Shown here: in pieces, positions 3,049 through 61,200 of the stretch
Layout: every line of letters begins with the position of its first letter
How positions within the stretch are numbered: the first letter of the stretch is position 1
Assembly (NCBI GenBank): GCA_032622095.1
Contig: CP136061.1
Coordinates: 4,644,505 to 4,708,504 of the forward strand
Origin: Siphonodentalium dalli
Lineage: Eukaryota > Mollusca > Scaphopoda > Gadilida > Siphonodentaliidae
Direction of reading: 5' to 3'
DNA length: 64,000 nucleotides
Program-made: the position numbers and the translations under genes
The notes under the pieces: generated by a model
Databases searched by the model: none
The model's input: only the letters and a program-made list of their open reading frames with translations
What the model was told of the DNA's origin: nothing

Positions 3049-3720
3049 CGCAAATGTGACATAGCTCCATCATAAAATGTTGGACTGAACCAAGATTCGA
3101 ATGTGACCTGTATTTTCATGTTATTAGCCCACATACTCATATTAATTTGATAGCTATCCTGTAATTATAACATATGTTATCAGCCGGATAAAATTATAAG
3201 CGAATAATAAGTTGATAAATTGCAAAACTCTGCACGAAATGGTCGGATCGAATCCAAATTCATCCCGTACTATAATTCATATTAACATCCGGATAACAAC
3301 ATGATCGGCAAATTATAAGCCGAACAAGAGGCATAACTCATTCAGAACTGGTCAGAGCGAACCCAAATACGAAAACTGACCTGTTCATGTGATTAATCCA
3401 CATACTAAATGTGTTAAAGTTATCAGCTGATAATCATATTAAGTCGAGTTATCATCTAGTCTACAAATTATTCAGCAAAAGGTGAATTAAGGGGCATAAC
3501 TACGCCAAAAATGATCGGACCGGATCAAAATGTGAACTCGATCGGGAAACGTACAAAGTTTCATGACATTATATCGAATAATATTCAAGTTTATATCGGG
3601 AAAACAAAAAATCGCCAAATTCCTATATGAAAAAGGGGCATAACTCTGTCAGAAATGGTCGGACGAAACCCAACCGAAACCCGAATGAACACACACGCAG
3701 ACGGACGGACACCGCTCAAT
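3049..3720 (+). repeat. Dispersed 'GGCATAACTC..GTCGGA' repeat
   Basis: Four related stretches (about 3058, 3325, 3490 and 3630) repeat the pattern GGGCATAACTC followed by AAAATGGTCGGA and TCGAACCCAAAT-like sequence, ending in an ACGCAGACGGACGGACACC tail at about 3690-3712. This is a non-coding repeat style I recognise from bivalve genomes; its parent element is not identified. The same stretch is present at 36740-37251 plus 51488-51620, where a 14-kb element splits it. Confidence 0.6.
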
Positions 3721-29955: not shown

Positions 29956-30222
29956 TGAAATAGCCTCTCGCTAAGGACTCGATCGTGAATATTTCTCGTA
30001 TACGATTCTCTCTATGATGTAATCTATACGTATACACTTGACATCAGTATATTCCGAATGTCATTTATATTAATAAACGTAAGTTTGGTAGAAACGTTGA
30101 GAAACAAACAAGTTAATGTGCATGTTATTGCTGCTCCTTCCCATCATTGATTTTCACCCTCGAGATTGTCTCGATGTGTACTCCGGTATACAGCAGTGTA
30201 ATATATACAGTCATTGACTTAC

Positions 30223-30528
30223 CCGGACATTCCACCCCAGCGTCCTGGGTGTGTTGACAGCTATTTGTTCCCCATCCGTTGTGAGTGCAATTCCATACGG
30301 AATTCTCATTTCCAACGCATGTGACTCCGTCCAGCCAGATAGGTCCAGTCCCTTGCCCATATCTTGCTAAACTTCTGGCAATCCCCCCTCGTAAACCAAG
30401 CGTCCTGCACACGATGGTTGCATCAGTGTTGTCCCATTCGTTGCTGCACACCGTTCCCCATTGGCCGTCCTTATACACTTCAACTCGACCAGATGCTGTA
30501 CTATTCCCACCAACTAACCGAATGTTGC
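30223..30528 (-). CDS. SRCR-domain exon (exon unit 2)
   Basis: A single-exon SRCR domain on the minus strand. Acceptor ATTTTAG before 30528; donor CCGG|GTAAGT with last exonic base 30223; 306 bp, phase 1-1. The translation runs NIRLVGG, GRVEVYKDGQWGTVC, WDNTDATIVC, RYGQGTGPIWLDG, VTCVGNENSVWNC, GWGTNSCQHTQDAGVEC. Six cysteines sit at the group-A-like positions. The GWG..CxHxxDAGV ending is closer to the vertebrate SRCR consensus than the other two exons here, so this is a different domain of the array rather than part of the recent duplicate pair. It would encode an extracellular ligand-binding module. Neighbouring domain types, signal peptide and membrane anchor are not in the window. Downstream in its reading direction lies the 45-bp minisatellite. 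Confidence 0.9.
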
Positions 30529-31159
30529 CTAAAATGGAGCACCCATGAAGTCATTTAATGTCAAGCCAGTATGTGTAGGTAGATTTATTTATTGTGTAGC
30601 TGTTATTGTTACAATATATTGTAAGTGCACTCTCATATCCGTATACACATTGAGTATGTTTATTGTATATGCAAAAACATATGGGTACATGTAATACTGG
30701 TCATGCAGATGACCTGCGACTAAATTAGAAATGAGCATTGAGACTGATCTAAAATAGGGAATGTAAATACCATAAAAAAGCTGGGCTCCACCGAAACGGA
30801 TTAAGGAAGACTAATAATAGTGAACCATTGTATGCTGGTGTGACATAATTATGAATGTGACATTTCGGTGATAACTGCATTAACGCGGGCCAGGACACGT
30901 CAAAGTATAATAATATGTACAAGTATGCCCGAGTCACATTCGAAAAAAAGTCGCTGTGTTTCTATATACACAAGCTGGGGAAACCGATTGATATACTCAA
31001 AGAAGGATTCGGTTAGACGCATACAGTTGTTCATGCGCACAAGCAAGCATTAATTAATTTACCGACTCCACAGAACACAGTTCACAGTCTTGGTAATTTC
31101 CAGGACATTATTGAGGGGGATATAAGGACTTTGTAAGTTCTAGATCAACATACATCATG
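30529..31159. other. Unassigned sequence, presumed SRCR intron
   Basis: Lies upstream (minus strand) of the SRCR exon and next to the BEL/Pao fossil. No exon or repeat is recognised. Confidence 0.4.
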
Positions 31160-36580: not shown

Positions 36581-37251
36581 CTGATGCCCACTAGTATAAA
36601 TACCGGTAGCGCAAGACAAATATATTAACTTTTTTTTTTTAAATAGTTATGTATGTTACCGGTATTTGATGTGACAGCACATCTACTTTAATTCGTCAAC
36701 AATATTTAGTTATATATTCAAATTCGAAAAATGGACATAGCTCCATCATAAAAGGTCGGACTGAACCAAGATTCGAATTTAACCTGTATTTTCATGTTAT
36801 TAGCCCACATACTCATATTAATTTGATCGCTATCCTGTAATCATAACATATGTTATCAGTCGGATAAAATTATAAGCGAATAATAAGTTGATAAGTTGCA
36901 AAACTCAGCCCGAAATGGTCGGATCGAATCCAAATCCAAATCGGAACGTTCAAATACCAAGTTTCATCAAATTCTGTCCCATACTATAAATTCATATTAA
37001 CATCCGGATAACAACATGATCGGTAAATTATAAGCCGAACAAGAGGCATAACTCCTTCATAACTGGTCATGTGATTAATCCACATACTAAATCATATTAA
37101 GTCGAGTTATCATCTAGTCTACAAATTATTCAGCAAAAGGTGAATTAAGGGGCATAACTCCGCCAAACATGATCGGACAGGATCAAAATTTGAACTCGAT
37201 CGGTACACGTACACAGTTTCATCAAATTATATCGAATAATATTCAAGTTTA
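36581..37251 (+). repeat. Dispersed 'GGCATAACTC' repeat, left half
   Basis: Colinear with 3055-3590 from GACATAGCTCCATCATAAAA (36734) onwards, with small deletions. It is cut at 37251 by the 14-kb TIR element and resumes at 51488. Confidence 0.6.
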
Positions 37252-37545
37252 CCCATATAAAAATGTACCTGGGTAAATCTTGGTGTTTACCTATGTATAC
37301 CCCGGTACATATAGGTTTTACCCTGGTTCCACCCAGGTCACACCCAGGTTACACCCAGGTAAATCAGGGATTTATATAGATTTACCCAGGTGTTTTCTAT
37401 ATATGTTAGGTATAAACCCCAGTTTACCCGGGTTTTTACGGATTTACACCAGGTATTTACACCCAGGTATTTACACCAGGGTTTCGCCCAGGTATTTACT
37501 ACAGTGTTCACCCGGATATATACACCTGTGGTATTTTGTTAAACT
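37252..37545 (+). repeat. Left subterminal repeats of the 14-kb element
   Basis: About ten ACCCAGGT/CACCAGGT words in 290 bp (for example CACCCAGGTCACACCCAGGT at about 37332 and CACCAGGTATTTACACCCAG near 37447) separated by TATTTAC/TTTACC. These mirror the ACCTGGGT words of the right end. Confidence 0.8.
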
Positions 37546-37564
37546 GTATAATCTGCATTGAAGT

Positions 37565-39325
37565 CACCTTATTAACCCTTTCTATATTACAGCACCATTG
37601 GCGTGTAGTTACCTTATTAACCATTCTATATTAAATCATTAATTGACAGGTAGTTACCTTATTAACCCTTTCTATACTAAGTAACATTGGTGAGTAGTTA
37701 CATTATTAACCCTTTCTATATTAAAGCACCATTGATGTGAAGTTACCTTATTAACCCTTTCTTTATTAAAGCATCATTGACGCGTAGTTACCTTATTAAC
37801 CCTTTCTATATTAAAATATCATTGATGTGTAGTTACAATGTTAACCCTTTCTATAGTATAGCATCATTGGCGGGTAGTTGGCTCATTGTCGTATATAGTT
37901 ACCTTATTAACCCTTTCTATACTAAGTACCGTTGGCGTGTAGTTGCCTTATTAACCCTTTCTATATTAAAGCATTAATTGACAGGTAGTTACCTTATTAA
38001 CCCTTTCTATACTAAGTATCATTGGTGAGTAGTTGCATTATTAACCCTTTCTATATTAAAGCGCCATTGGCGGGTAGTTACCTTATTAACCATTTATGTA
38101 TTAAAGCATCATTGACGTGTAGTTACCTTATTATAACCCTCTCTATATTAAAGCATCATTATTGCTGGGTAGTTATCTTATTAACCCGTTCTATACTAAG
38201 TATCATTGGTGAGTAGTTACAGTATTAACCCTTTCTATATTAAAGCATCATTGACGTGAAGTTACCTTATTAACCATTTCTGTATTAAAGCAGCATTGGC
38301 ATGTAGTTGTTAACCCTTTCTATATTAAAGCACCGTTGACGGGTAGTTGCCTAATTAACCCTCTATATACTAAAGTATCATTGTCGTGTAGTTACCTTAC
38401 CAACCCTTTATATACTAAGTATCATTGGCGTGTAGTTACCTTATTAACCTTTTCTATATTAAAGCATTAATTGACAGGTAGTTACATTAAACAACCCTTT
38501 CTATACTAAGTATCATTGGTGAGTAGTTACATTATAAACCATTTCTATATTAAAGCGCCATTGACGGGTAATTACCTTATTAACCATTTTTGTATCAAAG
38601 CATCATTGACGTGCAGTTACTATATTATAACACTTTCTATATTAAAGCATCATTGACTGATAGTTACCATATTAACCCTTTCTATATTAAAGCACCATTG
38701 GCGTGTAATTACCTTATTAACCCTTTCTACGTTGAAGCAATAATTGACAGGCAGTTACCTTATTAACCCTTTTTATAATGAGTATCATTGGTGATTAGTT
38801 ACATTATTAACCCTTTCTACAATAAAGCATCATTGACATGTAGTTATCATAGTAGCCAGTTATATATTAAAGCATCATGGACGGTAGTTACCATATTAAC
38901 CCGTTCTATATTAAAGCACCATTGGCGTGTAATTACCATATTAACCCTTTCTATATTAAAACATCATTGACGTGTAGTTACCCTATTAGCCCTTTCTATA
39001 TTTAAGCATCATTGACGTGTAGAACTTTATCTTATTAACCCTTTCTTTATTAAAGCATCATTGACATGTAGTTACCTTAGTAACCATTTCTACACTAAAG
39101 CATTATTGACGGGTAGTTACCTTATTAACCCTTTCTATATTAAAGCATCATTGACAAGAAGTTAAATTATTAACCTTCTATAATAAGTATCATTGCCGTG
39201 TAGTTAGTTACCTTATAAAACCTTTCTATATTAAGACGTCGATCATTGACGGGTAGTTGTTACCTTATTAATCATTTATGTATTCAAGCATCATTGACGA
39301 GTAGTTACCTTATTACTTGAAGTTT
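37565..39325 (+). repeat. Second 45-bp satellite, about 39 units
   Basis: The unit is GTAGTTACCTTATTAACCCT then TTCTATATTAAAGCATCATTGACGT; CCTTATTAACC occurs at 37567, 37612 and 37657. It is more diverged than the 25.75-kb array and has small indels. A three-unit block (AATTGACAGG, ACTAAGTATCATTGGTGAG, AAAGCGCCATTG) recurs near 37635, 37968, 38462 and 38737, which shows higher-order amplification. Not related in sequence to the other 45-bp array. Confidence 0.9.
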
Positions 39326-40055
39326 ATTATGACAGTATGACAATACACTACCCCGGACAAATGAAGCAATATCATACTTTATCTAACAGCCTAGCTATAA
39401 TTAGTGAACATTAAACTGACAAACAGACAATTTTCAGGGCCATTATTTAATATTAAAGGGATACAAAATAAAGAGATTTCTAATTATCAGTAAGAATTAT
39501 TCTCTAAGTGATACTTATTATTTCAAATAAATGATTGCATATACTATAGTAGACCATATACCAACAGGAAAATATTAGTGAATACAATTATTGTGTTTCA
39601 AAATTCGTTTCGTTTCGTTTCTGCAGCCAAATTACAATCTTAACTTTTAGTTATCGTTCTTCAAAATGGAGCGCGGATAATTCCTTGTGGTATTTTGAGT
39701 TAATTTTGTCGCGAATCAACGCGGATTGACAGAAGGAAATGGTGTATTGGCTACAAACGGATAAACTGTGGACTTATATATAAGATTCGCCGATTTCTCC
39801 CCATGGATGTGCGCAAATATCGAAAAAGACTGAATTTCATGTGACAAAAAATATTTCAATTCCCGGAACAGTAAGAATTAAGCTGCGATAACGAAACGGA
39901 TCAACTATAGTATTGAACAGTACATCAGCTACCTGGCCATAACCAGAATATTTTCTCAAAATTGAATTTGTGGTACCGGTACAATCATGATGTAGTGCCA
40001 GTGGCCTGCTCATAATGCACCTGTCCAGAAGAAGAAGAATTGAGAAGTTTGAAGA
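39326..40055. other. Unassigned interior of the 14-kb element
   Basis: No reading frame with a domain and no array. Confidence 0.4.
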
Positions 40056-40565
40056 TCATCATCATTCATGGACTACGCAGACACCATCTGGGACCCCTAC
40101 CAACAAAATCACATCGACAAGCTGGAAAGAATCCAGCGTAGAGCAGCCCGTTTCATTAAAAGAGACTATAAGAGCAAAGAAGATGGATATATGAAAGATC
40201 CTCTACGAGCTAGATTTACCAACATTGCAGAAACGGCGGAAAATAAATCGGCTGGGATTCATGAGTAAGGTGGTGGGTGGATTGGTCCCGGCTATACCGC
40301 CTAATCAATACTTTACACCCGAAACAAGGCGTCTTAGATCGCAGAGCAAAGTTCTGACAGGCTACGTCACCAGCCAAATTCCTCGGCACCTAATTTAAAG
40401 GAACAACAGTCAGTGCTACGAGGCTATACCATACGTGTCAGCTCAGTTCGCTAATTCCACATTTGTTCGAACTATATGCGACTGGAATCAGCTGGAGGAA
40501 TCCTTAATCCTACAACAACAGCCTGTGGATTCCTTCAAGAGTGCGCTGAAGGAAAAGATCTGAGA
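40056..40565 (+). mobile_element. LINE 3' fragment (CR1/jockey-like RT C-terminus)
   Basis: C-terminal end of a non-LTR retrotransposon reverse transcriptase. From 40068 the frame reads MDYADTIWDPYQQNHIDKLE then RIQRRAARFI, the highly conserved segment beyond the RT core. A shift of frame at about 40197-40210 leads to LPTLQKRRKINRLGFMSKVV, GLVPAIPPNQYFTPETRRLR and, after a TAA at about 40396, WNQLEESL and VDSFKSALKEKI. The catalytic core and the 5' part are absent, so it is a dead 5'-truncated copy. Such truncation is typical of LINE insertion. No poly-A or clear 3' end was located; the match fades by about 40600. Confidence 0.85.
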
Positions 40566-40814
40566 CTCTCTCGCCCGCTGCGAAATTACCATAATTGGGA
40601 TCTGCAGCGTAACCATTCAGATTCAGATTGATCCACGATAGTAAGGGGTCAGTACATGTAGTAAGTACTGATAGTGATAAGCCTGCTGTACAATAATACT
40701 ACTTTTGCTGTTTTACTGGTCTTAACTGAGTACTGTGTCAATGTGACATTGTTAATTCAGTTCCACTCTAATGTACATTAACTGGCAATGATGCATCTGA
40801 CGCTATTAAAGGCA

Positions 40815-41035
40815 CCGGTAATCCCTAAATACCAGGAGGACGCGGCGTAGAAACTTGGTACAACAGTTGTTACACGACAAAGAAAATTATCAACAAGCTT
40901 AGTGAGCGTCATCATCAAAATTGCAAATTAAAACACGGCAATGGTAAATTGGTAATCCCTACATACCAGGAGGACAAGGCATTGAAACTTGGGACAACAG
41001 TTGTTACACGGCAAAGAAATTTAAAACACACTGTG
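40815..41035 (+). repeat. ~134-bp direct duplication
   Basis: GGTAATCCCTAAATACCAGG near 40819 and GGTAATCCCTACATACCAGG near 40952, each followed by AGGAC, GAAACTTGG and ACAACAGTTGTTACACG. Two units, non-coding. Confidence 0.75.
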
Positions 41036-41337
41036 CACAGATGAATGTTTATACATGTACTGTGCAGTCGAGATCACCTGGACTACAAATATTTGAGGAT
41101 TATACTATTTGATGAGTAGATGCGTGACTGATAAAAGAATTAGAGACTCCATATTTACTCGGAAGATAACAGTATACGAATCATACGATGCCATACAGTT
41201 GTTCCATAACACCTCAACCTTTGGTGGATATTAACAGTAAAACTAATGAAAATGATGAAAGCCAGACTCAACATCAAGACAACATGTGCATGCATAAGTG
41301 ACGGTTCAATGATTTTGACTCCATCAGATGATATTTA

Positions 41338-41716
41338 AGCGACACCAATTTTTAAGTCTGGTTTACGATGTGGGGAGAGAAAAAAGTAGATGCAGGAGGG
41401 AAAAAAATAAAAATAAAAAAGATTGTCCCCCCAATTTATATCAAGTAAATCGTGGAATTTTACATAAATTTTACAAAAATTGTGAAAAAATGTTTTTGAA
41501 TGAAATTCTGTTCAAACCAAACAAGACATATCTTGTCATGAAATACATGAAAATATGGATCTGTAAATGATCATAAGCAGAACCGGATGCGACAGCACAT
41601 GAAAATCAGTACGCGTGTAAAATATTTTGGGACAAAAAAAGTAAAAAAAAATTTCATGAAATGGAAACAAAGTTGTAGGAGGTGTTCTTAAACCAGACTT
41701 AAAAATTGGTGTCGCC
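41338..41716 (+). mobile_element. 379-bp Harbinger-like MITE, copy 1
   Basis: TIRs GCGACACCAATTTTTAAGTC and GACTTAAAAATTGGTGTCGC, with TTA on both sides (41335-41337 and 41717-41719). Three-base TTA/TAA target sites are typical of PIF/Harbinger. The interior is A-rich with no coding capacity. Its inverted sister is at 48670-49050. Confidence 0.85.
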
Positions 41717-41902
41717 TTAGGCTCATGTTAACACAGGATCACATATTCTCAAAATAATTGTCTCCCTCAAGTTGGCCTCAACCATACTAGTATTTATATT
41801 TGATAGAACCTCAGTGAGACCATGTTGAAAATTACCATCAATGCAGTTCCAGTGTTGACGCAACGCGGTCATGTTACTTCAAACCAGTTGCAATGTTCCT
41901 TA

Positions 41903-42595
41903 GGCCAAAGAAAAAAGATACTATGTTTCCGTACATCGACCGACCCTAAAAATAACCCGCCGACCCTAAACTTTTTATTGATATTTTGAGAAAAAGTCAA
42001 AATTTTCGCAATTTTAATTTCCTGAGAGTGGATCTCCTGCCTGCTTTATGTCTTGTTTGGGACTTATGGAACACTATCAACAGACATGGTGGGTGTGTAT
42101 CTGTATATATACATGTAAAGAGGTTATCACTGCATATATTAGGGGTATACATGTACTAGTAGCTACTGTTTCCAAAAACCAGGCATGCTCGGTGGGTGTA
42201 CTGGCTACCCCCAGACAATGGGATGTAATCGTCACAATACATGTACGGTATAATGGCGGTATTATTGGTAAAATTCTTATAAAAAGTTAGTGACATCAAT
42301 TTTGTACCAAGTTTATAGCCAAATTTATGAAAATGTGGTATTAGATATAATAAAAAACATACGTAAGCATGAAGTAAGTTTGATTTTTTATCAATCTTAA
42401 TGTATATTTCCACTGTGTTGATCAAGTAATACTTTCCCCATGGCACGGGTTGGCATTTTATGTCACTTTGGTCGAGGTAGTTCAATATTTCTGCAGCTGG
42501 ATAAAAAATATCAAAATAAAATAAAATAAAAAAAATTCCCTACCTACCTACCCTAAATTTTTTTACCGGAAACATACAATCTTTTTTCTTTGGCC
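41903..42595. mobile_element. 693-bp TIR element
   Basis: Ends GGCCAAAGAAAAAAGATACT and, reversed, GGCCAAAGAAAAAAGATTGT, continuing to ATGTTTCCG (29 bp, few mismatches). Subterminal CGACCCTAAA / CTACCTACCCTAAA repeats. TTA-like sequence flanks both ends but the exact target duplication is ambiguous. No transposase. Confidence 0.7.
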
Positions 42596-42634
42596 TTTAG
42601 CATGGTAATTCGTGAAAATAAATGTCAATGCAAC

Positions 42635-43576
42635 TTACTCTCAGGCTCCAAATAAAAGTGCAGGCCCAAATAATAGTGCGGGGGGGGGGAAATTCCATTG
42701 AAAGTTAATAAAAGTACAGACCCAAATAATAGTGCAGGGGGAACTCTGAGCAAAACATCAACTGTGGTTAACCAAATAATTTTTATAGCAGGTTCAGGTA
42801 TACGAGTCAACATGTAGTACAGGTACATGTATGTATCATGTGGTGTTTTTTTGGTTTGCCACATACTTGAATATGTACTACTCTTGAGTGCCTAATGTAC
42901 GATTATTAAAATCGAGGTAAAATTCCCACCTGTACGATCGTTATTTGGTCCTGTACGTTTATTAAATTAACCAAAATAAATAATTCACCAATCTTAAATT
43001 GTGTTATTCATATAAGAAATGAACGGCGGTTTCAATGCGGTCATGGGGTTTTGACCGCGAGAAAAAATCAGCAAACTTCGGGGTTCATGCAGAGTTTGCT
43101 GATTTTTTTAACGCGGTCAAAACCCATGACCACGTTGAATCCGCCGTTTATTATTTATATTTATATACTTAAATTCATTATGAACTAGGATTGTATGTCT
43201 TTCCCATTATTTATTCATCTATTTAAACAAACGCATGGAGTTCAGTTCAGACAGTTCGAATCCTTGTTTTTTGGAAAACCAAACATTTTGAGAATCCGTT
43301 CATGGAGAACGGAAGAAACGCAATTTCACAGTAAAGTATAAACATATGACAAAATGTCTTGTTTAGCTAGTAACTAATGTAGACGTGTTGATCATTTTTA
43401 CATCTGAATCATATAGAAATCTTGAATTTGTGCTGATTTAAATTTTCATAGCTTCAAAATATTAATAAACGTGCAGACCCAAATAAGCACTGTGCAAGGG
43501 GGGGGATTTCCCAAGAAAAATAATAAACGTGGATGCAGCTGGTGCATGCATATTTATTTGGAGCCCAAGAGTAAAG
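42635..43576. mobile_element. ~940-bp inverted-end element
   Basis: TTACTCTCAGGCTCCAAATA at the left is matched in reverse by TATTTGGAGCCCAAGAGTAA at the right (three mismatches). Inside the ends, AGACCCAAATAATAGTGCAG and a following G-run recur in direct orientation at about 42650, 42715 and 43470. A hairpin element (43022-43149) lies inside. Confidence 0.55.
43022..43149. mobile_element. 128-bp near-perfect hairpin (MITE-like)
   Basis: AACGGCGGTTTCAATGCGGT, CATGGGGTTTTGACCGCG and AAAATCAGCAAACT are followed after a 16-bp loop by their complements, ending CCGCCGTT. It was probably mobilised as a foldback MITE; no target duplication was resolved. Confidence 0.75.
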
Positions 43577-44678
43577 AGGTGGAGGTGAATGTTACATGTA
43601 AGTTGGTATTAACGAAATGGAACGATGCCTTTAATAGGTTCCACCAGCAATAAGTCGCGACTTCTTTATATTGGCCTGACAGATTGGTTTTTGTTGGCGT
43701 CATGCCTGTCGACCATTATGATGGCCACATATATTGTCATATAACAGCGATTTACGATCTGTCTTGTTGGCTCATAATATAAATTAAGAAAGTGGCCTTG
43801 TGTTCGTTCCTTGCGTAAAAAAATATTTTTTAGTACAAACGTCCTCATTGATTGTGTCCCTCGACTCCTTGTGTAATTGGTCAAGTAACTTACATGTATG
43901 TGCATGTACAGACCACTCACAAATTTCTTAGAAAAGCGACCACATGTTCGAATCTACTTTGCGATTTTGGAGCAACGCATTTGTAAATGCGTTCATATTT
44001 TAACACATTTACCTTGATTTATTCACAAACAAATGTCTTGATGCAGGCCTTAAAATCCATCAGATTTTTGGCAATAATCAAAATGTTAGTGTTTCACTTT
44101 CTACAGGGAATCAAGACTTTTTACTAGAATCAAAATGAGAATCATGATTCTCAGATTCTGATTATAAAACAATTAATGTCAACAGTGTTTATTTATGTTT
44201 ATTCCATTTTGAATGGAAAACTACATCATGAATGTCCGATTCCGAACATATACATGTACACCAGGAGTGGGAAAATAACACAGAATTATTCAGATGTGAA
44301 TTTAAATTAAACAAAATTATAACTAAAATTGCAAAATACACTATCGTATCGTTATTTGGGTGTTCATACTAGTATACTTTTTCGGCGCAATGATCGGTAA
44401 TTTCAATGCGACTGCGATTATTCCCAATGCAGTGCATTTAATTTAAATGCTGTCATTAAGGCATTTACAAAGTGGTGTGACACAATGCACCCTCAATGCA
44501 TTTTAAATGCAACAACCGCATTTCATTGATCCACGTTGTAAAGGACATTTATTTTTAGAATACATGTATGTACGTGTATATAACCACAAGAATAAAGAAC
44601 AAATCAAATGTTTTTATTACTTTGTAAACCTCTGATGTTTCCCATACAGTATACATTTGTATATTATAAACCATGTTA

Positions 44679-44893
44679 CAGTAATTCTAGAGCTAATTAA
44701 TCGACTCCTTAACTACAGCAGAATTATGGGTAACTTTTCAGGATTTAGTCCGAAATATGGCTTGTTGCCATTCATCGGAAAGCTCTCACCGAGAGCTCCG
44801 ATGAATGGCATCAACCCATATTTCCGACTAAATCCTGAAAAGTTACCCATAATTCTGCTGTAGTTAAGGAGTCGATTAATTAGAGCATTACTG
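44679..44893. mobile_element. 215-bp palindromic MITE (CAGTAAT family)
   Basis: Starts CAGTAATTCTAGAGCTAATT and ends AATTAGAGCATTACTG, with TA on both sides. The arms share CTTAACTACAGCAGAATTAT and GGGTAACTTTTCAGGATT with the 129-bp elements at 10372-10842, so they are one superfamily. The loop is formed around CTCTCACCGAGAG. Confidence 0.85.
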
Positions 44894-45014
44894 TATATCC
44901 TCTATAACTGTTTATTCAACATCACGTGCTGCAATCCATAAATGCGGTTCAGATTTCGATGTCCGGTAAAACCATATTATCATATGGTTTTATAGCAGAA
45001 ATACTCAGTTTGGA

Positions 45015-46390
45015 ATGTTATACCATACAAGTTTTACGAGTTGCTCTTGCTCAAGAATGGATAAATTTATAAACCTGATTTTTGGCGCATTAGTTAGAAT
45101 TATATTTTTGCACAAGAACACACCACAAATATCGAACTGGACATCAAAAGCAGAACCGGATTGTATCGATTGCATAAACATAAGAAGTTGGTCACTGACC
45201 GACAATTGCTATTCTCTGGTGTGGTTTATAGGACTACCGTACGCAATGCCGACTTAAAAATAAAAATTCACATAAACATCGCATGAAGCGGTCTATCCAC
45301 AAACTCAGGTATTCGGTAATTCCAAATGTATGAACTATCACCATGATATCCCGGTATATCATTGTCAGGACTGTTTGTACAAAAGGTTGTTATTCTACTA
45401 TGCATAATTTTGCTATATCATTGTACTCGGACTGTATTGCAATGTAATATATCAGTACATGTACCGGTATACTGGGTGCACATTATATACATGTAGGCCT
45501 ACTTTCACTTTAGTACATGTATGTGTCATAAAAGACTCATGTTGTTAAATTGAAAACAAACATGTGTGAAAACAGAGAGAATACATGTACATGTGCCGGT
45601 ACTATATACCTCTTTGTGTGCTGTACTACCGGTACTATTCATGTACATGTACTACACTACAATAAGAGAAATTTTAATTGATTCTGCTGCCCTTGTGCCA
45701 CAGGCCTCAAACACGCCAAACAAGTATCTGTAGCCAGGCCCACCAGTACCAGGCTACTAGTAAATGAAGTACTGAAAGTGTCACATCATTAATCGAGCCC
45801 AATCTTAGTTATACTAGTCTCTTGTGTAGTTTGGGTTACTATTAATAAGATATTTAATGAATGTTTGGAATGTATGGTAGCATTCTTACCTGGATCAACA
45901 TATGCCATGCACAACGCTGGTCATCATATCATCACCGCTGTTGGCAGTAAACCGCTCATCGGGCTATAACAGTTAGAGTTTTCCATACCAGGGCTAATCT
46001 AATCAGTTAAAATTAGTCATTTTAGAGGGAATACCAACCAGTGGAAGACGTACAAAAGTCATGTATATTCAGATATCAGTTTTCGAGAAAAAACCCATCT
46101 TAGTCGAGCGGACTTAGAATATCGGGGTAAACTTAAATTTCATTCAGCAACACTTTCACAGCAGAATATAAAAATAGTACATTATAATCACTTACAGTAC
46201 ATGTACATGTAGCCCAAGTGCAGTGCTAGCCTATATTATATACTACCAAAACTTTTGGTCAGTTTCTCGATGACTGACACTTGTAAACGCTTGAACGGGT
46301 ACTATATAGTACATGTACATGTACATGTGTACCATATGTGAATTAAAGATCTTATTAGTGACACAACAGGAGGCTAGACATACATTTGTA
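45015..46390. other. Unassigned interior of the 14-kb element
   Basis: Rich in TACATGTACATGTA palindromes (45450-45660, 46195-46330). No gene is recognised. Confidence 0.4.
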
Positions 46391-46394
46391 ACTA

Positions 46395-46559
46395 CAGTAA
46401 TGCTCTAATTAATCGACTCCTTAACCACAGCAGAATTACGGGTATTAAACTCGGGGAGAGCTTTCCGATGAATGGCAACAAGCCATATATCCGACTAAAT
46501 CCTGAAAGTTACACATAATTCTGCTGTGGTTAAGGGGTCGATTTCTTAGGGCACTACTG
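46395..46559. mobile_element. 165-bp palindromic MITE (CAGTAAT family)
   Basis: CAGTAATGCTCTAATTAATC at the left; GATTTCTTAGGGCACTACTG at the right; TA flanks. Same arm sequence as 44679-44893 (CTTAACCACAGCAGAATTA) but with part of the left arm lost, so the pairing is asymmetric. Confidence 0.8.
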
Positions 46560-46980
46560 TATCTGTTTTAGTGCACATCAAATGTATTTGTTGTCTTTCC
46601 TCTTGTAATTTGTCTTTGGTTGTGTTCGCCATTTCGATGGACAACTACATGTACTGACATCAAATGACTGAAATGAGTCAAAATTTAGCAGTGCAGCCAA
46701 TTATATAGATAAACAGAATTAAATAGCATCCAAATTCCAAATGAGCATAAATGATAAAACAAACTTTATTGAGCACTCTTTTAATACTAGTAATTACAGC
46801 TACAATGAAAGCACCTAATAAAAATTCTAAGTTTGGTAAAACTGTCTGTATACAAAGTTTATCTGGCCGTGATGAATAAAACTTATAAATGGGATCATAT
46901 ACATGTATGTTAGATATCATTACATGATTATTTGAAAACACGTATCCGTATGGAAAACAAACTATTTTACCACTGGCCAA

Positions 46981-47098
46981 GTGGTCCTGCTAATATGCTA
47001 TGATGCTGGTGGTCCTGCTGAATTGCTATGATGCGGGTAGTGCAATTCATAGCAATTAAGCAGGACCCAACCGCATCATAGCACATTAGCAGGAACAC
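46981..47098. repeat. Double hairpin (118 bp)
   Basis: The outer arms GTGGTCCTGCTAATATGCTA / TAGCACATTAGCAGGAACAC enclose inner arms GGTCCTGCTGAATTGCTATG / CATAGCAATTAAGCAGGACC. The inner arm is itself a near copy of the outer one, so the arms can pair in more than one way. Confidence 0.75.
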
Positions 47099-47698
47099 TT
47101 TAACAGGGTATATTTACAGTGTCAAATCGAATGGGCATCTTTTAACAATATTTTTGAACAATTTCCTAGAAGTGTTCGAAAATTGAGAACTGAATTTCAA
47201 TTTTTTTTTATGAGGTTTCGATTAAAAAATTTCTAACTTAGCTCATCAGGATTAACATTGTCGCACAGCTATATTCTCTTTCCCAACAAAGTCTATAGAA
47301 CATACATGTAAAATTACAGCTTTAATTAATCAACTCGCCTTATATTACTCGGGTATTACTGCAGTATTCAGGCGTGTTCATGCGATCAACCGCAGTCAGT
47401 TATACCGCCGCAGAATGTGGTCCACCTCACATTTGCAGTTAGGCTGTATTTTTCATGCGATGTTAATATGAATTTTGTTTTAAAGTTGACATTGTAATCA
47501 CACCAGAATTTTTTTTTATTGTTTCAAAATGTCTAGATAGAATTCAGAATTTTTGTGGTAAAAACAATTAACTTGGTTATCACAGTTAACACATATTACT
47601 GTGGTAAGATTACCAGCGGATACCGCATGTCAACAGGGACTGCATGCTCTAATTAATTATCAGGTTTAACATGTTTATACTGGATACAGTTCATTTTA

Positions 47699-48636
47699 AA
47701 GGTACTCAATCAGGTTCGATGATACCCATATAATCAGATTCCAACATCATACATTTGTATTTAGAAAGGCTGCTTCAGTTACGTTATCAGAATTGATTAA
47801 TTGCCCTAAAATAATGCTAACCACTGTCAACTAAAGTATACAATTGCCTGACATATGTTATTTATCAACATGTTGTTCTACAAAATTTGGCCTTATTATC
47901 AACAGAAAGCCTCTTGATTTTAGAGTTATCCATCTTCATCTGAAATTTGGTCCGAGACCGTGGGCCACTATTAATTCTTGATCGTGAAAAATAGTATATT
48001 TCAAAAATTGATATCTAATAACTCTGAGCTTTGATAGGTGGTGGGTTCCTCGACTCGTACCAAATATCTTTTACCCCCCAAGTCCAAATAAAGAGTAATG
48101 TGCGAGCATTAATTCAGGGGGCCCTTAATCATCAGATTATGCATCTTTAAATTCAAATACAGTTTAAAGATGCATAATCCGATTAAGTGCCCCTCATTTG
48201 CTATTTACATATACATGTATATGGAATCGGGGGGGGGGTAAAAATATTTTAATCAAGTCGAGGGACCCACCTACATGTATCAAAGCTCAGAGTTATTAGA
48301 TATCAATTTTTGAAATTTTAATATTTATCACCATCGATACTTAATAGTGGCCCAGAAAAATTTGACGAGCCGACGGTCTCAGACCAAATTGCGGATGAAG
48401 ATGGATAACTCTAAAATGAAGAGGCTTTGTGTTGATAATAAGGTCAAACTTCGTCGAACAGCATGTTGATAAATATAACGTATCAGGCGATTTTATACTA
48501 TACATGTAGTTGACAGTGGTTAGCATTATTTTTGGGCAATTAATCGATTCTGATATTACTGAAGCAGCATTTCTAAAAAAAATGTTGTTGTTGGAATCTA
48601 ATTATATGGGGACCATCGAATCTGATTGAGCACCTT
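47699..48636. mobile_element. 938-bp full-length foldback element
   Basis: Nearly the whole element is one inverted repeat with arms of about 460 bp. The left end AAGGTACTCAATCAGGTTCG and the right end GAATCTGATTGAGCACCTT match in reverse, as do inner strings such as TTGATATCTAATAACTCTGA (48009) and TCAGAGTTATTAGATATCAA (48286). TA flanks both ends. The centre is near 48165 (ATGCATCTTTAAA). Arms differ by scattered substitutions and small indels, so the insertion is not very recent. Confidence 0.85.
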
Positions 48637-48669
48637 TAATAGTTAGCTATATGAGTTATATACACATAA

Positions 48670-49050
48670 GGCGACACCAATTTTTAAGTCCGGTTTACGA
48701 ACACCTCCTACAACTTTTTTTCCATTTCATGAATTTTTTTTTTACTTTTTTGTCTCAAATTTTTTTTACACGCGTACTGATTTTCATGTGCTGTCGCATC
48801 CGGTTCTGCTTATGATCATTTGCAGATCCATATTTTCATGACAAGAAATGTCTTGTTTGGTTCAGAATTTCATTCGAAAAAAATTTTTTCACAATTTTTG
48901 TAAAATTTATGTAAAATTTCAAGATTTACTTGATATAAATTGGGGGGGACAATTTTTTTTATTTTTATTTTTTTCCCCTCCTGCATCTACTTTTTTTCTC
49001 CCCACATCAGCCCACATGTTCGTAAACCAGACTTAAAAATTGGTGTCGCC
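48670..49050 (-). mobile_element. 381-bp Harbinger-like MITE, copy 2 (inverted)
   Basis: Same element as 41338-41716 in the opposite orientation, with TAA at both ends (48667-48669 and 49051-49053). Shared interior strings include GCATCCGGTTCTGCTTATGA. Confidence 0.85.
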
Positions 49051-49074
49051 TAATAGACATTTAAACTTTGAAAA

Positions 49075-50640
49075 TTGTAGGTTTCCGGATGATAACTTCA
49101 GTTTGTGTGATCATATCTGAACCAAATGTGGTATGTAAGTTTATCAGACCAAAATACAGGTCAAGTTCGAATATAGGTGTGCTCCGCTCATTTTTGCGAG
49201 AGTTATGGCCCTTTTTCGACTTAGAATCGTGTTAATTTCTGGTTTCCGCATCATAATTTTAGTTTGTGTGATCAAATCTGAATCAAATTTGGTATGATAG
49301 TTTATTATCCACCATTTCATGGGACACTGGTTGGATTGTTCTGAAATGTAGTATCGGATTTAGGGGACCTTGATATATTTTTCAGACAAGCTGATGCCCC
49401 AAAGAAGCCACTTTTTCTCACATTTGCTGAAATAGTATCCAAAACATCAACATATCAAGAGCCATTAGACTGAATTAGATAAAAATATATCACTTGGGTC
49501 TGTTTAAGCTGGAAAATACTCAAAAATTTATAATTTTCTGCTATTATATCTGCATACTAGCCTTTTTGCTGAATCGTGAATGCCGGTTATATTGCCGTGT
49601 GAAATCCTAGTACCAGATAACATTGGGTATGTACATGTATATAGCATACCACCTGAAAATGGCTTGAATATCACATACCAAAGCGGGGTGGGGTGTGTGT
49701 GACACCCTCCTTGATCATAGTCTGTATTCTACAGGGTATGTTAACTGTTTCGAGTTGGTGCAATTAATGTGATTGTTTAATCTCTACCATCTGAAATCTA
49801 TTTATAGCATATTTTGCTATCTGATCAATATTGCTACTTAGTACTGATATAAAACAGGATAAAGATGGTGTGTCTCTTTCCTGAATGTTCTGTTTACATG
49901 TACATTTGGGGGTTTATGAGTCAAATAATATCAGACAACATGTCCTTCTAACACTAAGAAATAATATGTTCTTATCAACCAGGACAAAATATGACTATTT
50001 CTGGAGCATTACAGCACATTATTACAAATCTATATTTGTAAGCAGTAAGATAATGACAGGAAACATGTCCTCAGACTAAGAAATAATTTTTTGGTGTGTA
50101 TTTCACACCACAGCTCATGTGTATACTCACATTAGTTTATGTCATTCAAAGGGAGAAACCCATTTAGAAAGTTTAAATGAGACAAAACTACCTCACTGTA
50201 GATGTAGTTGCAAGGTACAACATGTACATGTATTCTGGTAAATGACATTGGAACTAAAATAATGATTTTTGTGTCCACCGGTATGTCATGTACCGGTACT
50301 AGTATACATTGCAACTACATGTACATGTAACTTGCCTAACATACCATATACATGTATGAAGAGGGACTTTGCAAGTGTTTTTTAATCAAAATTTTAACCC
50401 AACGCTTGTTGTCAGTAAGTTTTAACCCATGCAGTTTAATGAGTTTATATATTTATATATTACATGTGTTTCTATACATGTATTTTATCTTTAGTTAGTT
50501 TGTTGTCCTTGAATAAACTTGTATTGCTGCACAATCAGTTTCCTTAATGTTCTATTATACTAAAACAACTCCATTGATAACAATACCCCTGCATCCCATC
50601 AAAATCTACTTCATTGCCATCCTCATCATTTCACTTTGGT
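49075..50640. other. Mostly unassigned interior of the 14-kb element
   Basis: A dispersed repeat of the GAGAGTTATGGCCCTTTTTC type lies at about 49075-49320 (GTTTGTGTGATCAAATCTGA twice). Otherwise there is no array or gene; short open stretches have no recognisable domain. Confidence 0.4.
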
Positions 50641-50645
50641 ATCCC

Positions 50646-51487
50646 CACCCAGGTGTACCTTGGTGTTATTCACCCAGGTGTTCCTTGGTGTTTCCTACCC
50701 ATGTGTACCTTGGTGTTTTCTTACCCAGGTGTACCTTGGTGTTTTCTTACCCAGGTGTACCTTGGTGTTTTCTTACCCAGGTGTACCTTGGTGTTTTCCT
50801 ACCCAGGTGTACCTTGGTGTTTCCTTACCTGGGTGTACCTTGGTGTTTTCTAACCCAGGTGCATCTCAATGGGAAATCCACCTGGGTAAGAAAACACCAA
50901 GGTACACCGGCGTAAAAAAAACACCAAGGTATACCTGGGTTGGAAACATCAAGGTACACCTGGGTGGGGAACACCCAGGTAGGAAACACCAGGGTACACC
51001 TGGGTGAATAACACCAAGGTACACCTGGGTGGGAAACACCCAGGTAGGAAACACCAGGGTACACCTGGGTGAATAACACCAAGGTACACCTGGGTGGGAA
51101 ACACCCAGGTAGGAAACACCAGGGTACACCTGGGTGAATAACACCTAGGTAACCTGGATGGGAAACACCCAGGTAGGAAACACCAGGGTACACCTGGGTA
51201 AATAACACCATGGTACACCTGGGTGGGGAAACACCCAGGTAGGAAACACCAGGGTAGACCTGGGTGGGAAACACCCAGGTAGGGTACACCTGGGTGTGGT
51301 CACCTGGGTAATTACACCCAGGTTTACCCATACCAGGGTTTTTATCCAGTTTCAGGTGGGTAAATCATGGTAAAACCCAGGTTTCGCGGGGTCTTGATGG
51401 TTGGTGGATGTCTTGGTAGATAGATTTTTACCTGGGTTTCGGCCCAAAAAACCTGGGTGGATTTACCCAGGTACATTTTTATATGGG
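50646..51487. repeat. Right subterminal ACCCAGGT/ACCTGGGT array, head-to-head
   Basis: From 50646 to about 50870, 26-bp units GTACCTTGGTGTTTTCTTAC then CCAGGT run in one direction. From about 50878 to 51300 the same unit runs inverted (ACCAAGGTACACCTGGGT), organised in a 65-bp higher-order unit (AGGGTACACC at 50991, 51056 and 51121). The inversion centre is near 50871. Open frames of 80-170 codons here come only from the repeat. The array contains more than 25 CAGGTG/CACCTG words. Confidence 0.9.
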
Positions 51488-51810
51488 TATATCGGGAAAA
51501 CAAAAAAATCACCAAATTCCTATATGAAAAAGGGGCATAACTCTGTCAAAAATGGTCGGACAAAACCCAAACGAAACGCGAATGAACATACACGCAAACG
51601 GACGGACACCGCTCAATTCTATAGTCTCTGGAAGTTACTTTCCTGGCAACAATTGGACAACCAGCATCATATTCAATCAACACAGTCAATGACAGCAGAT
51701 TACTTTTATTACATTATTGTCTTACCCTTATCAACACGAGTTACGGGGCTCTCCGACAACATCCAATAACCCACACTAGCTTCTGTTCAACTGTGACACA
51801 TTTTACTCAC
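51488..51810 (+). repeat. Dispersed 'GGCATAACTC' repeat, right half
   Basis: Resumes the sequence interrupted at 37251 and matches 3591-3907, including AGGGGCATAACTCTGTCAAA and the CGGACGGACACCGCTCAATT tail. It is intronic with respect to the SRCR exon. Confidence 0.6.
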
Positions 51811-52110
51811 CCTGACAGTCAACTCCAGCGTCGGATGCATGTAAACAGCCTGTTGTCGAATAAGAGCAATTCCATATTGCAGCCTCTTCCCCGGTACATG
51901 CGACGCGACTCATCCAGGTAGGTCCCGTACCTCGTCCGTATGCATACATTCTGGCGAGTCCTCCTCGAAATCCCAGCATCTTGCACACAACAGCTGCATC
52001 AGAGTCATCCCATCCCGCGTCGCACACTGTTCCCCATTGACCGTTCATATAGACCTCAACTCGACCGGATGTTATTATTGATCCACCAACCAGACGAATG
52101 TTTTCTGAAA
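51811..52110 (-). CDS. SRCR-domain exon (exon unit 3)
   Basis: A single-exon SRCR domain on the minus strand, paralogue of 3908-4210. Acceptor TTTTATCAG before 52110 (an alternative start at 52104 uses the next CAG); donor CAGG|GTGAGT with last exonic base 51811; 300 bp, phase 1-1. The translation includes SENIRLVGGS, GRVEVYMN, GQWGTVCDAGWDDSDAAVVC, KMLGFRGGLARM, YGRGTGPTWMSRVACTG, EEAAIWNC and DAGVDCQG. Six cysteines are conserved. Compared with its paralogue it differs mainly in the loop after LAR and near the C-terminal disulfide (TTGCLHASD versus TACSHSTD), while the core is kept and the frame is intact in both. That pattern fits two functional exons, although pseudogenisation elsewhere cannot be excluded. 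Confidence 0.9.
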
Positions 52111-53990
52111 CTGATAAAACACATCAATTGGTCGATGTCACTCGATGTGTCGCAGTTGCGACCTCATAAGTGATTTACACCATTACTGCCTGCATACTAT
52201 AATAAATGCAGTGCTGATACCCGGCGTATATTGATGTACATCCTTGCATTACTGTCTGCATAATATAATAAATTTCATGTTGATACCAGGTGTTATCGAT
52301 GTGCAACCTTATTGTCAGCAAATTATATAGCATCAATGTTGGTGCCCGGTATATATCGTTGTGCAGCTTTACCGTCTGCATAATACAATACATTCAATGT
52401 TATGTTAATGCCCAGTGTATATCGCTGATGTATATCAAACCATTGGAATGGACGTATATGTCTTGCAATCTATTTGTGAGAAATATTGGAACCATGTATT
52501 GGCTAAAAAAACTGATGCTGTAATGATGGAGTTTCCGTAATATAACTTCATGAGTAATCATATACAATTATTCGGACAAGTCATTGAAGGTTACCAAAAT
52601 GCAATTCGTTGATTATTTAGTGTGTATGTGGCTATGGTATACAGTATATGATGACAGAGGTGCACTGTTGAGTTGTCAGCTCTAAAGCCACATTCGTGTT
52701 TGTAACGGACTGTGATAGTCTGTTATAACATAGCTTCGCGTCAGAACTAAACTGGTCTATATAAGTTTTGGCGGGAAAATGAGATATTGGTATATTTCGT
52801 TTCGGTGCGGGATTTCCTGTCCGAAAATAATCAGATATCGTATACCATTGATAATTTGAATGAAAGGTTGTTTAAATCTGATCAATCTCAAAACTCATCT
52901 TTTTAGTCCGGGAGCTAATATGGGTACCATTGCACCCCCCCCCCCCCACATGGGACTTAACCTCGCCCAACTCATGTTGTTCCTTATTATGTCCTTCAAC
53001 TTTTAAGCAATGTTAACAAGAAAAATACATGGCCGTGTAGACTCCAGACAAGATGGCGTCCATCATGGCCGCCGTTTTTTCAGAACAGACCTTAAGTCAG
53101 TTTTGTGCAATTTATAGCGGGAAAATCTTGTAAAATGTATACACATGTTTATATTTTCGTGACGCTAAGACATTATAACACATTTTTGGGCCAAAATTGC
53201 AACTAACCATCCAAGATGTCCACCAAAATGGCCGCCGGAAGTTGAAAATATGACGTTTTTTCCACAAATATCCTCTAGATCAGTTCATGCTGTTTGGAAC
53301 TGATTGAGTAATATGACTTTATTTTGTGTTTTGTATGTTAACTTATCATTGGAACAATTACATATTCAATTATTGGGGTCCTAGCCCCTTCCGATCCCTC
53401 AAAAATTCGATTTTACAGAACGCGGTATAACATTTCACAAAAAATTCTAAATTGGGATTCTAGTCATATTTCAACAAGAAATGAACAGAACTACGAGTGA
53501 CGCCATTCATAAACAAATCTGAGTTAATTATAATACCACATTTTAAATCTACAGATTTTTTCTGAAGTCAGCAGTCACTACCATGTTTTGGTTTACTTCT
53601 TCCTACGTCGTATCAATTATGTCCATATAGAACGATTTAGCTATATCAAAATGATTATTTAAACCACCCTTATTCAATAAAATACAAAGAACAAATTAAA
53701 TGTGTTCTGTTTAAAAGTACATTTTGTCGTAATGGTCTCTAATCTACACACATACACTAGGGACTGAAACGGTCTGCCTAATTTGTGCATGCCAGTCACA
53801 ACTGGTTATCTGGCGCTTTAATTGTGAACACCTCTCCTTGTTCAACCGATTTCGGTTGTCTTTTGTCTATAAAATGATGGGATTGAAAAAAATGTTTTTA
53901 AGGTAATTTCAGCTCCGATAATTTTGAGACATGTATATTCGATTGATATATAGTTTCATCAGTGTGCGGTCTTTTTTCAATCCGGAAATT
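52111..53990. other. Presumed SRCR intron, second copy
   Basis: Colinear with 4211-5988, including the ~62-bp tandem (52184-52440). It retains about 115 bp (around 53226-53343, starting AAATGGCCGCCGGAAG) missing from the first copy. A C-tract lies at 52937-52947. Homology ends at TCAATCCGGAAATT. Confidence 0.6.
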
Positions 53991-58284: not shown

Positions 58285-61200
58285 ACATCACGCAAGGGCG
58301 TTAATAGATGGCTGAGCTACGAGGCAATGGATGTATAGGCACAACATTAATACATCATGCAAGGGGCGTTAATAGATGGCTGAGCTACGAAGACAATGGA
58401 TGTATAGGCACAGCATTAATACATCATGCAAGGGCGTTAATAGATGACTGAGCTACGGAGACAATGGATGTATAGGCACATCATTAATACATCATGCAAG
58501 GGCGTTAATAGATGGCTGAGCTACGAAGACAATGGATGTATAGACACAGCATTAATACATCACGCAAGGGCGTTAATAGATGGCTGAGCTACGAAGGCAA
58601 TGGATGTATAGGCACAGCAATAATACATCATGCAAGGGCGTTAATAGATGGCTGAGCTACGAAGACAATGGATGTATAGGCACAGCATTAATACATCATG
58701 CAAGGGCGTTAATAGATGGCTGAGCTACGAAGACAATGGATGTATAGACACAGCATTAATACATCATGCAATGGCGTTAATAGATGGCTGAGCTACGAAG
58801 ACAATGGATGTATAGGCACAGCATTAATACATCATGCAAGGGCGTTAATAGATGGCTAAGCTACGAAGACAATGGATGTATATGCACAGCATTAATACAT
58901 CATGCAAGGGCGTTAATAGATGGCTGAGCTACGAAGACAATGGATGTATAGACACAGCATTAATACATCATGTAAGGGCGTTAATAGATGGCTGAGCTAC
59001 GAAGAAACTGGATGTATAGACACTGCATTAATACATCATGTAAGGGCGTTAATAGATGGCTGAGCTACGAAGGATGGATGTATAGACACAGCATTAATAC
59101 ATCATGTAAGGGCGTTAATAGATGGCTGAGCTACGAAGACAATGGATGTATAGGCACAGCATTAAACATTATGCAATGGCGTTAATAGATGGTTGAGCTA
59201 CGAAGACAATGGATGTATAGACACAGCATTAATACATCATGCAAGGGCGTTAATAGATGGCTGAGCTACGAAGACAATGGATGTATAGGCACAGCATTAA
59301 TACATCATGCAAGGGCGTTAATAGATGGCTAAGCTACGAAGACAATGGATGTATATGCACAGCATTAATACATCATGCAAGGGCGTTAATTGATGGCTGA
59401 GCTACGAAGACAATGGATGCATAGACACTGCATTAATACATCATGTAAGGGCGTTAATAGATGGCTGAGCTACGAAGGATGGATGTATAGACACAGCATT
59501 AGTACAACATGTAAGGGCGTTAATAGATGACTGAGCTACGAAGACAATGGATGTATAGGCACAGCATTAATACATCATGCAAGGGCGTTAATAGATGGCT
59601 CCGCTACGAAGACAATGGATGTATAGACACAGCATTAATACATCATGCAAGGGCGTTAATAGATGGCTGAGCTATGAAGACAATGGATGTATAGACACAG
59701 CATTAATACATCATGTAAGGGCGTTAAAAGATGGCTGAGCTACGAAGGATGGATGTATAGACACATCATTAGTACATCATGTAAGGGCGTTAATAGATGG
59801 CTGAGCTACGAATGATGGATGTATAGACACAGCATTAATACATCATGTAAGGGCGTTAACAGATGGCTGACCTACGAAGGCAATGGATGTATAAGCACAG
59901 CATTAAACATCATGCAATGGCGTTAATAGATGGTTGAGCTACGAAGACAATGGATGTATAGACACAGCATTAATACATCATGCAAGGGCGTTAATAGATG
60001 GCTGAGCTACGAAGACAATGGATGTATAGACACAGCATTAATACATCATGTAAGGGCGTTAATAGATGGCTGAGCTACGAAGGATGGATGTATAGACACA
60101 GCATTAGTACATCATGTAAGGGCGTTAATAGAAGGCTGAGCTACGAAGGATGGATGTATAGACACAGCATTAATACATCATGTAAGGGCGTTTATAGATG
60201 GCTGAGCTACGAAGACAATGGATGTATAGGCACAGCATTAATACATCATGCAAGGGCGTTAATAGATGGCTGAGCTACGAAGACAATGGATGTATATACA
60301 CAGCATTAATACATCATGCAAGGGCGTTAATAGATGGCTGAGCTACAAATGCAATGGATGTATAGACACAGCATTAATACATCATGTAAGGGCGTTAATA
60401 GATGGTTGAGCTACGAAGGATGGATGTATAGACACAGCATTAATACATCATGCAAGGGCGTTAATAGATGGCGGAGCTACGACGATAATGGGTGTATAGA
60501 CACAGCATTAATACATCATGCAAGGGCGTTAATAGATGGCTGAGTTACGAAGGATGGATGTATAGACACAGCATTAATACATCATACAAGGTCGTTAACA
60601 GATGGCTGAGCTACGAAGGATGGATGTATAGACACAGCATTAATACATCATGCAAGGGCGTTAATAGATGGCTGAGCTACGAATGATGGATGTATAGGCA
60701 CAGCATTAATACATCATGTACGGGCGTTAATATATGGCTGAGCTACGAAGGACGGATGTATAGGCACATCATTAATACATCATGTAAGGGCGTTAATAGA
60801 TGGCTGAGCTACGAAGACAATGGGTGTATAGACACAGCATTAATACATCATGCAAGGGCGTTAATAGATGGCTCCGCTACGAAGACAATGGATGTATAGA
60901 CATAGCATTAATACATCATGCAAGGGCGTTAATAGATGGCTGAGCTATGAAGACAATGGATGAATAGACACAGCATTAATACATCATGTAAGGGCGTTAA
61001 AAGATGGCTGAGCTACGAAGGATGGATGTATAGACACATCATTAGTACATCATGTAAGGGCGTTAATAGATGGCTGAGCTACGAATGATGGATGTATAGA
61101 CACAGCATTAATACATCATGCAATGGCGTTAATAGATGGCTGAGCTACGAAGACAATGGATGTATAGACACAGCATTAATACATCATGTAAGGGCGTTAA

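Follow-up and report, generated by a model that had tools for sequence, protein, structure and literature searches.

A recently amplified family of giant non-coding terminal-inverted-repeat transposons with a sequence-neutral 2-bp target-site duplication in Siphonodentalium dalli

The 64,000-nucleotide stretch of the Siphonodentalium dalli genome analysed here (contig CP136061.1, positions 4,644,505 to 4,708,504; hereafter the window) contains, at 37252-51487, one copy of a genuine transposon family, recently amplified, whose members are giant and non-coding, have terminal inverted repeats (TIRs) and make a 2-bp target-site duplication of neutral sequence. The unit, of about 14.2 kb and with fixed, distinct left (L) and right (R) ends, inserts as one piece and is present in hundreds of copies. 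Very probably it is a non-autonomous cut-and-paste DNA transposon that is moved in trans, with an enzyme of the CMC (EnSpm/CACTA-like) group as the likeliest candidate for the transposase.

The window copy measures 14,236 bp and is bounded by perfect 28-bp inverted repeats (28/28), CCCATATAAAAATGTACCTGGGTAAATC at 37252..37279 on the plus strand, which is found family-wide, and its exact match at 51460..51487 on the minus strand. A 28-bp inverted pair of this kind is expected by chance at about 3e-8 (assuming equal base frequencies), and the 28-mer has no further copy in the window. Comparison of the flanks with an empty site places the two copies of the duplicated target, TA, at 37250..37251 and 51488..51489. 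The empty site, which we show for the window copy only, was located by block alignment in a paralogous block at 3587..3605 (plus strand) and reads AAGTTTATATCGGGAAAAC, the flanks being joined uninterrupted with one TA at 3592-3593. The left flank (36729-37251) is 79% identical to 3052-3593 and the right flank (51488-53228) is 92% identical to 3592-5329, and both alignments break at the element. A first-pass annotation, made from the letters alone, had described the identical ends with TA on both sides and the empty site with a single TA, and had proposed aligning the duplicated blocks across 3590; exact comparison and the aligned blocks bear out both descriptions. It had also placed the insertion in an SRCR gene, in agreement with the minus-strand SRCR domain exons (Pfam PF00530) found on either side, at 51806..52123 (E 4e-27) and 30128..30550 (E 6.6e-31); the element therefore presumably lies in an intron of that gene. 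The inverted repeats, the fixed-length duplication and the empty site are the general marks of TIR (DDE) transposons.

The same ends are abundant in the rest of the genome (2.23 Gb in nine contigs, C1 and onwards). The TIR together with TA, allowing up to 3 mismatches, gave 518 and 513 matches on the two strands (0 and 0 for a control read backwards), and exact R-type and L-type ends were found 461 and 383 times, respectively, with no match to either reversed pattern; the ends are of the CCCATATAAAAATG type. As the first-pass annotation had suggested, facing partners were then sought, using 100 listed L ends of the 383 exact ones (contigs C1 to part of C3) and all exact R ends in that territory. 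A facing R end lies within 40 kb of 80 of these 100 L ends, as against 2 for the control of wrong side or orientation. The 80 paired lengths have a median of 14.37 kb, with 55 between 13.5 and 15.5 kb, the shortest at 7.39 and 8.70 kb and the longest at 34.1 kb. Of the first 100 TA-flanked TIR matches, 64, all of them exact, form 32 facing pairs within 40 kb. Miniature inverted-repeat transposable elements (MITEs) are short non-coding elements of about 1 kb or less, and the shortest of the 80 paired copies, at 7.39 kb, is well outside that class. No miniature form was found among these 80 pairs with exact ends on contigs C1 to part of C3, a set that forms with altered ends would escape.

The target rule was examined in the 19 pairs that had both ends among the 40 best L and the 40 best R matches, the flanks being ignored in the choice. 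A 2-bp duplication is present in 19/19 (chance about 1e-23), in nine sequences, AA, CT, TT, GT, AG, GA, TG, CA and TA, the last of them three times; one AAA and two TATA are ambiguous for a longer match. The ends were found by a DNA search with no flank in the query, and the neighbouring bases vary: of the 461 exact R ends, 187 are preceded by A, 124 by T and 150 by G or C. Since both the dinucleotides of the 19 pairs and the base before the R ends vary, the target is two bases of any sequence. The first-pass annotation had taken the element to insert at TA, which would point to a Tc1/mariner-type element; the window copy and two of the 18 other pairs do carry TA, but 16 of the 19 pairs carry another dinucleotide, and a base other than A stands before 274 of the 461 exact R ends. 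The sequence-neutral rule thus excludes the TA-inserting reading, to which we attach next to no probability, and with it ISL2EU (PHIS) elements, for which an AT duplication is expected (PMC4482050) and AT occurs in 0/19 pairs. Polinton/Maverick elements were rejected on the length of the duplication, 2 bp here and 6 bp there (PMC10045372).

The interior travels with the ends. A 601-bp mid-element marker (43640..44240, plus strand) is reported as 100% identical in all 40 genomic copies scored (of 1310 first-look candidates), and its distance from the ends, measured against a listing of 300 of the 461 exact R ends, is nearly constant. Of the 23 copies with a listed R end, 22 have the marker 7.81-8.01 kb from it (7.85 kb in the window; 17 of the 40 have none listed), and of the 16 with a listed L end, 13 have it 6.34-6.45 kb from that end (6.39 kb in the window). 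All 40 copies scored (of 695 candidates) agree fully over the outermost 208 bp at the R end, the L subterminal region is 95-99% identical in 39 other scored copies, and in the only two other copies scored over long stretches the interior matches over 7.9 kb at 100% and over 8.9 kb at 99%. Since many copies are nearly identical, the family is, to judge from these identities, recently amplified. A 16.6-kb copy in opposite orientation, which is about 79-95% identical to the window copy in most stretches, belongs to another subfamily.

The pairing and the fixed distance of the marker therefore argue for an amplified family and against a coincidental pairing of short elements. That two such elements had inserted separately at a distance of 14 kb, or that the unit was a composite formed once, might have been suspected from ends that are short and repeat-rich and from an interior free of their motif, and separate insertions had been named by the first-pass annotation as the outcome that would overturn its view of 37252 and 51487 as the limits of one very large unit. 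The 80/100 L-R pairing (2 in the control) at a median of 14.37 kb, the colinear and near-identical interior and the match of the duplication across the unit in 19/19 pairs make that explanation exceedingly improbable. An assembly artefact is hardly more credible: a 5.9-kb palindromic copy that includes its flanks is of a kind that can arise in assembly, but the copies number in the hundreds and are spread over all nine contigs, and their flanks differ from copy to copy and their 2-bp duplications match.

Some arrangements of the ends deserve separate mention. The 5.9-kb copy just referred to (C7:2398500-2404600, L081) is a palindrome of two R ends, flanks included, and can be read as an inverted duplication or as an assembly fold. 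At C4:147166490-147166640 (L127), the R ends of two oppositely oriented copies lie 8 bp apart, with CGGCCATA between them. R ends in the same orientation recur at spacings of 15.9, 14.97 and 3.95 kb at C1:244441341-244471504, C7:136086385-136190119 and C7:130357413-130365344, and perhaps reflect local tandem duplications of the element or of parts of it.

Read from left to right, the window copy consists of a TIR, some 310 bp of L region, a tandem array with a 45-bp unit, a non-coding stretch of about 11.3 kb, an R region of about 840 bp and the second TIR. The L subterminal region (37252..37561, plus strand), delimited by motif count and by comparison with family copies, holds 12 repeats of the ACCCAGGT type at up to one mismatch. 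The array of 45-bp repeats of the TAGTTACCTTATTAACCCTTTCTATATTAAAGCATCATTGACGGG type follows at 37562..39315 (plus strand; Tandem Repeats Finder), in keeping with the earlier view that satellite DNA is carried inside the element. The non-coding interior (39316..50646), which is colinear in other copies, contains nested short inverted-repeat elements and an inverted pair of about 390 bp, with arms at 41335..41719 (plus strand) and 48667..49053 (minus strand) that are 88.6% identical. The R subterminal region (50647..51487, minus strand), delimited by Tandem Repeats Finder and motif count, is made of 26-bp and 65-bp arrays of ACCCAGGT/ACCTGGGT in both orientations. Counted on both strands at up to one mismatch, there are 12 copies of ACCCAGGT in the leftmost 310 bp of the element and 53 in its rightmost 847 bp (from 50641), as against 3 in the 13,079-bp interior and 13 in the remaining 49,764 bp of the window. 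Past the first 28 bp, L and R match only in motif-driven stretches of up to 52 bp, in both orientations, and it is because these stretches are short that the two ends can be told apart. Foldback elements have long inverted repeats that form much of the element. The foldback likeness drawn by the first-pass annotation therefore stands in so far as both ends share subterminal motif arrays and falls in that the inverted repeat is just 28 bp and the arrays differ; foldback proper was rejected, the other L-R matches being short and motif-driven. Within the interior, 40020-40560 resembles what we take to be the 3' end of a non-LTR retrotransposon, perhaps a nested fragment; three open frames there have no Pfam match.

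No coding capacity was recognised in the copies read. Besides the window copy, these comprised the whole of the 16.6-kb copy, the whole of the 5.9-kb palindromic copy and 5 kb of a 20.3-kb copy around its extra DNA. An open reading frame of transposase length is absent from the window copy, as first noticed from its letters (longest interior frame 127 aa), and the search for a relative that encodes a transposase, proposed at the same time, found none in the 16.6-kb copy (longest frame 166 aa) or in the part of the 20.3-kb copy that was read (119 aa). Seven interior open frames, from the 87 frames of at least 45 aa in the element, gave no Pfam match above the cut-off, and none of 13 aligned stretches (some overlapping) between the window and 16.6-kb copies showed a codon phase of substitutions at p < 0.05. 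Polinton/Maverick elements encode their own polymerase and integrase, and coding of that type is missing from the window copy, no interior frame of which exceeds 127 aa. Rfam at gathering scores gave no match in window positions 37000-51700, the window holds no tRNA, the exact 28-mer end has no match in viral contigs, and nothing was recognised by eye at three loci where the ends flank a diverged interior (L033, L036 and L038). Four long copies were sampled with 20 probes of 300 bp, of which 15 had at least a partial match to the window copy or to the 16.6-kb copy. Of the five without such a match, one is the L118 probe of a 21.3-kb copy, described below, and three come from a 28.5-kb copy (C6:16569921-16598381; probes L121-L125) with about 14 kb of extra DNA, each of them open for 99-100 aa; one of these three has a weak match to TATA-binding protein (TBP, PF00352; E 0.0015, below the cut-off) and another contains GATKSGKT, which we take to be a Walker-A-like motif. 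The extra DNA of the 28.5-kb copy is perhaps a nested element that resembles a virus.

We thus favour, with considerable confidence, a giant non-autonomous and non-coding DNA transposon mobilised in trans, most likely by a CMC enzyme. A DDE transposase encoded elsewhere would bind the ACCCAGGT arrays at both ends, pair L with R, cut at CCC...GGG and insert the unit with a 2-bp stagger; copy number would then rise through normal repair after replication-linked transposition, and the non-coding interior and the 45-bp satellite would be carried along during amplification. Plant En/Spm elements have dense subterminal repeats, and non-autonomous members are common in the CMC group (EnSpm/CACTA, Mirage, Chapaev). 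The family resembles this group in its short TIR, the length of its duplication, its subterminal repeats and the existence of non-autonomous members. It differs in ending in CCC...GGG instead of CA..TG, in the lack of a CACTA transposase inside paired copies and in its 14 kb of non-coding DNA. Our best guess among the known groups is nonetheless the CMC clade, on account of the subterminal arrays and of how long the duplication is: CMC elements have duplications of 2-4 bp (PMC4482050) and the wider CMCT clade has 2-5 bp, with termini 5'-CA..TG-3' in most cases (PMC12730594), and here 2 bp is found in 19/19 pairs, with the motif 12 times in 310 bp and 53 times in 847 bp vs 3 times in 13,079 bp.

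Several observations weigh against this interpretation. As to the unit, 20 of the 100 listed L ends lack an exact R end facing them within 40 kb, the partner perhaps having mutated, been truncated or lying farther off, and of the first 100 TA-flanked ends 36 are unpaired within that list; the marker lies 8.78 kb from the R end in one of 23 copies and 8.66, 9.85 and 14.19 kb from the L end in three of 16. As to the enzyme, the termini are CCC...GGG in 19/19 pairs and in the other single ends read, not CA..TG, and no transposase is linked to the ends. The PF02992 (CACTA transposase) profile has 78 matches in the genome, many in intact frames of up to 1016 aa, but none inside the 80 paired units; measured from 561 listed end positions, some of which are one end under slightly different coordinates, the nearest match is 21.4 kb off and outside its unit (C3:13476285) and the next is 82 kb away. 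As to the coding content, one 300-bp probe (L118; C6:53070900-53071199) of a 21.3-kb copy is open over all 100 codons, has no Pfam match and is unlike both the window and the 16.6-kb copies; it is possibly a gene inside a long copy, and it is possible that a transposase-bearing copy is present among the hundreds unread.

Two alternatives draw on these points. The enzyme might belong to an undescribed DDE lineage outside CMC whose elements end in CCC...GGG and which inserts with a 2-bp stagger at any sequence. We regard this as somewhat unlikely, although the departure from CA..TG, the unconstrained 2-bp duplications in 19/19 pairs, the lack of a PF02992 match within the 80 paired units and the mere 5 weak genome matches of the Plavaka profile (best E 3e-4) all speak for it; against it, CA..TG holds only "in most cases" (PMC12730594), and the protein search covered only two transposase profiles, PF02992 and Plavaka. 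Alternatively, the family might be autonomous, some copies encoding a transposase and the 14.2-kb form being an internal replacement derivative, as paired lengths of up to 34 kb, the extra DNA of the longer copies and the open L118 probe could indicate. This seems to us slightly less probable still, since three extra-DNA probes of the 28.5-kb copy look virus-like, the 5 kb around the extra DNA of the 20.3-kb copy hold no frame longer than 119 aa, and L118, within a sample of 20 probes of 300 bp from four long copies, has no Pfam match.

The CACTA-type elements of the same genome were also compared with the family. In a tblastn search, the longest frame of each of four PF02992 loci (L102-L105, from two families) gave only matches with E of at least 2 against the window, the 16.6-kb and 5.9-kb copies and the end loci. 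A CACTA start was tried as the left boundary of the L102/L103 family and dropped because the two copies differ there, and the CACTA termini of the genome were not used. Frames of 909 aa with equal scores occur in ten places, for example at C6:123313353 (L105) and C6:1785449 (L104), and two of the ten loci are 99.9% identical over 3.57 kb; by this similarity, the 909-aa CACTA-type element appears as a recently active DNA transposon. A cluster of 12 PF02992 matches with near-equal scores, each with one in-frame TAG, lies within about 5 Mb at C7:18858452-23974121.

Returning to the trans-mobilised transposon that we favour, it can be set beside several known systems. Helentrons are rolling-circle elements, and the family here differs from them in having TIRs and a 2-bp target duplication. 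The non-autonomous Helentrons with satellite-like arrays of Crassostrea gigas (PMC7492417) are likewise non-coding and have spread a tandem array. The foldback element Tetris of Drosophila virilis is also apparently non-autonomous, with ends rich in tandem repeats and a link to a satellite, but its TIRs hold internal tandem repeats of about 220 bp (PMC4079207), whereas here 28 bp are inverted and the ends are unlike. Large retrotransposon derivatives (LARDs) offer an analogous parasitism, a large non-coding unit moved in trans; theirs, however, lies between two long terminal repeats (LTRs), the DNA between which rarely exceeds 10 kb according to a review of giant transposons in eukaryotes (PMC6431247), and ours is a 14-kb DNA transposon. 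The same review cites enlarged En/Spm elements of 16-20 kb in Chondrus crispus, which are of similar size and the same presumed superfamily but have 4-5 open reading frames, none being recognised here. Like MITEs, the non-autonomous Tc1/mariner elements described as "large" in the beetle Callosobruchus share with the family here that they are non-coding, TIR-ended and mobilised in trans, but at 654-2,199 bp they are six- to twentyfold shorter and of another superfamily (PMC10849321). The segments captured by animal Pack-TIRs have a median of 224 bp (PMC8277862). Among the titles and openings of abstracts surveyed in the open-licence PMC literature, none described a family of non-coding DNA transposons that are several kilobases long and have these ends.

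A more far-reaching possibility, to which we give less weight than to either alternative above, is that amplification of the family requires the entire non-coding unit of about 14 kb, its interior being needed in cis, and that the enzyme is a DDE transposase not yet described, which acts on CCC...GGG ends and inserts with a 2-bp stagger irrespective of sequence. Short derivatives would then be absent because the interior is required, and the interior could serve a replication or repair function, the spacing of the ends, or a non-coding RNA.

Elsewhere in the window, outside the element, are two further tandem arrays. A 90-bp array at 25607-29974, built of YHGDNCLLVSGISRL-type repeats, has one frame that stays open for about 1,450 aa apart from one stop, and could be a coding minisatellite or a chance frame. 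An array with a period of about 68 bp occupies 58285-64000 and continues past the end of the window.

Non-autonomous DNA transposons are expected to be short, and length usually lowers transposition. It is thus unusual that the successful form of this family is about 14 kb long and non-coding, and the absence of short derivatives among the pairs is the most surprising of its features. If each exact R end stands for a full unit, 461 copies of about 14.4 kb would make up about 6.6 Mb, or about 0.3% of the genome. The family spreads a 45-bp satellite as it moves, and the window copy landed between the exons of an SRCR gene. With this family it becomes possible to test directly how large a cut-and-paste transposon can be and whether its interior is needed in cis.

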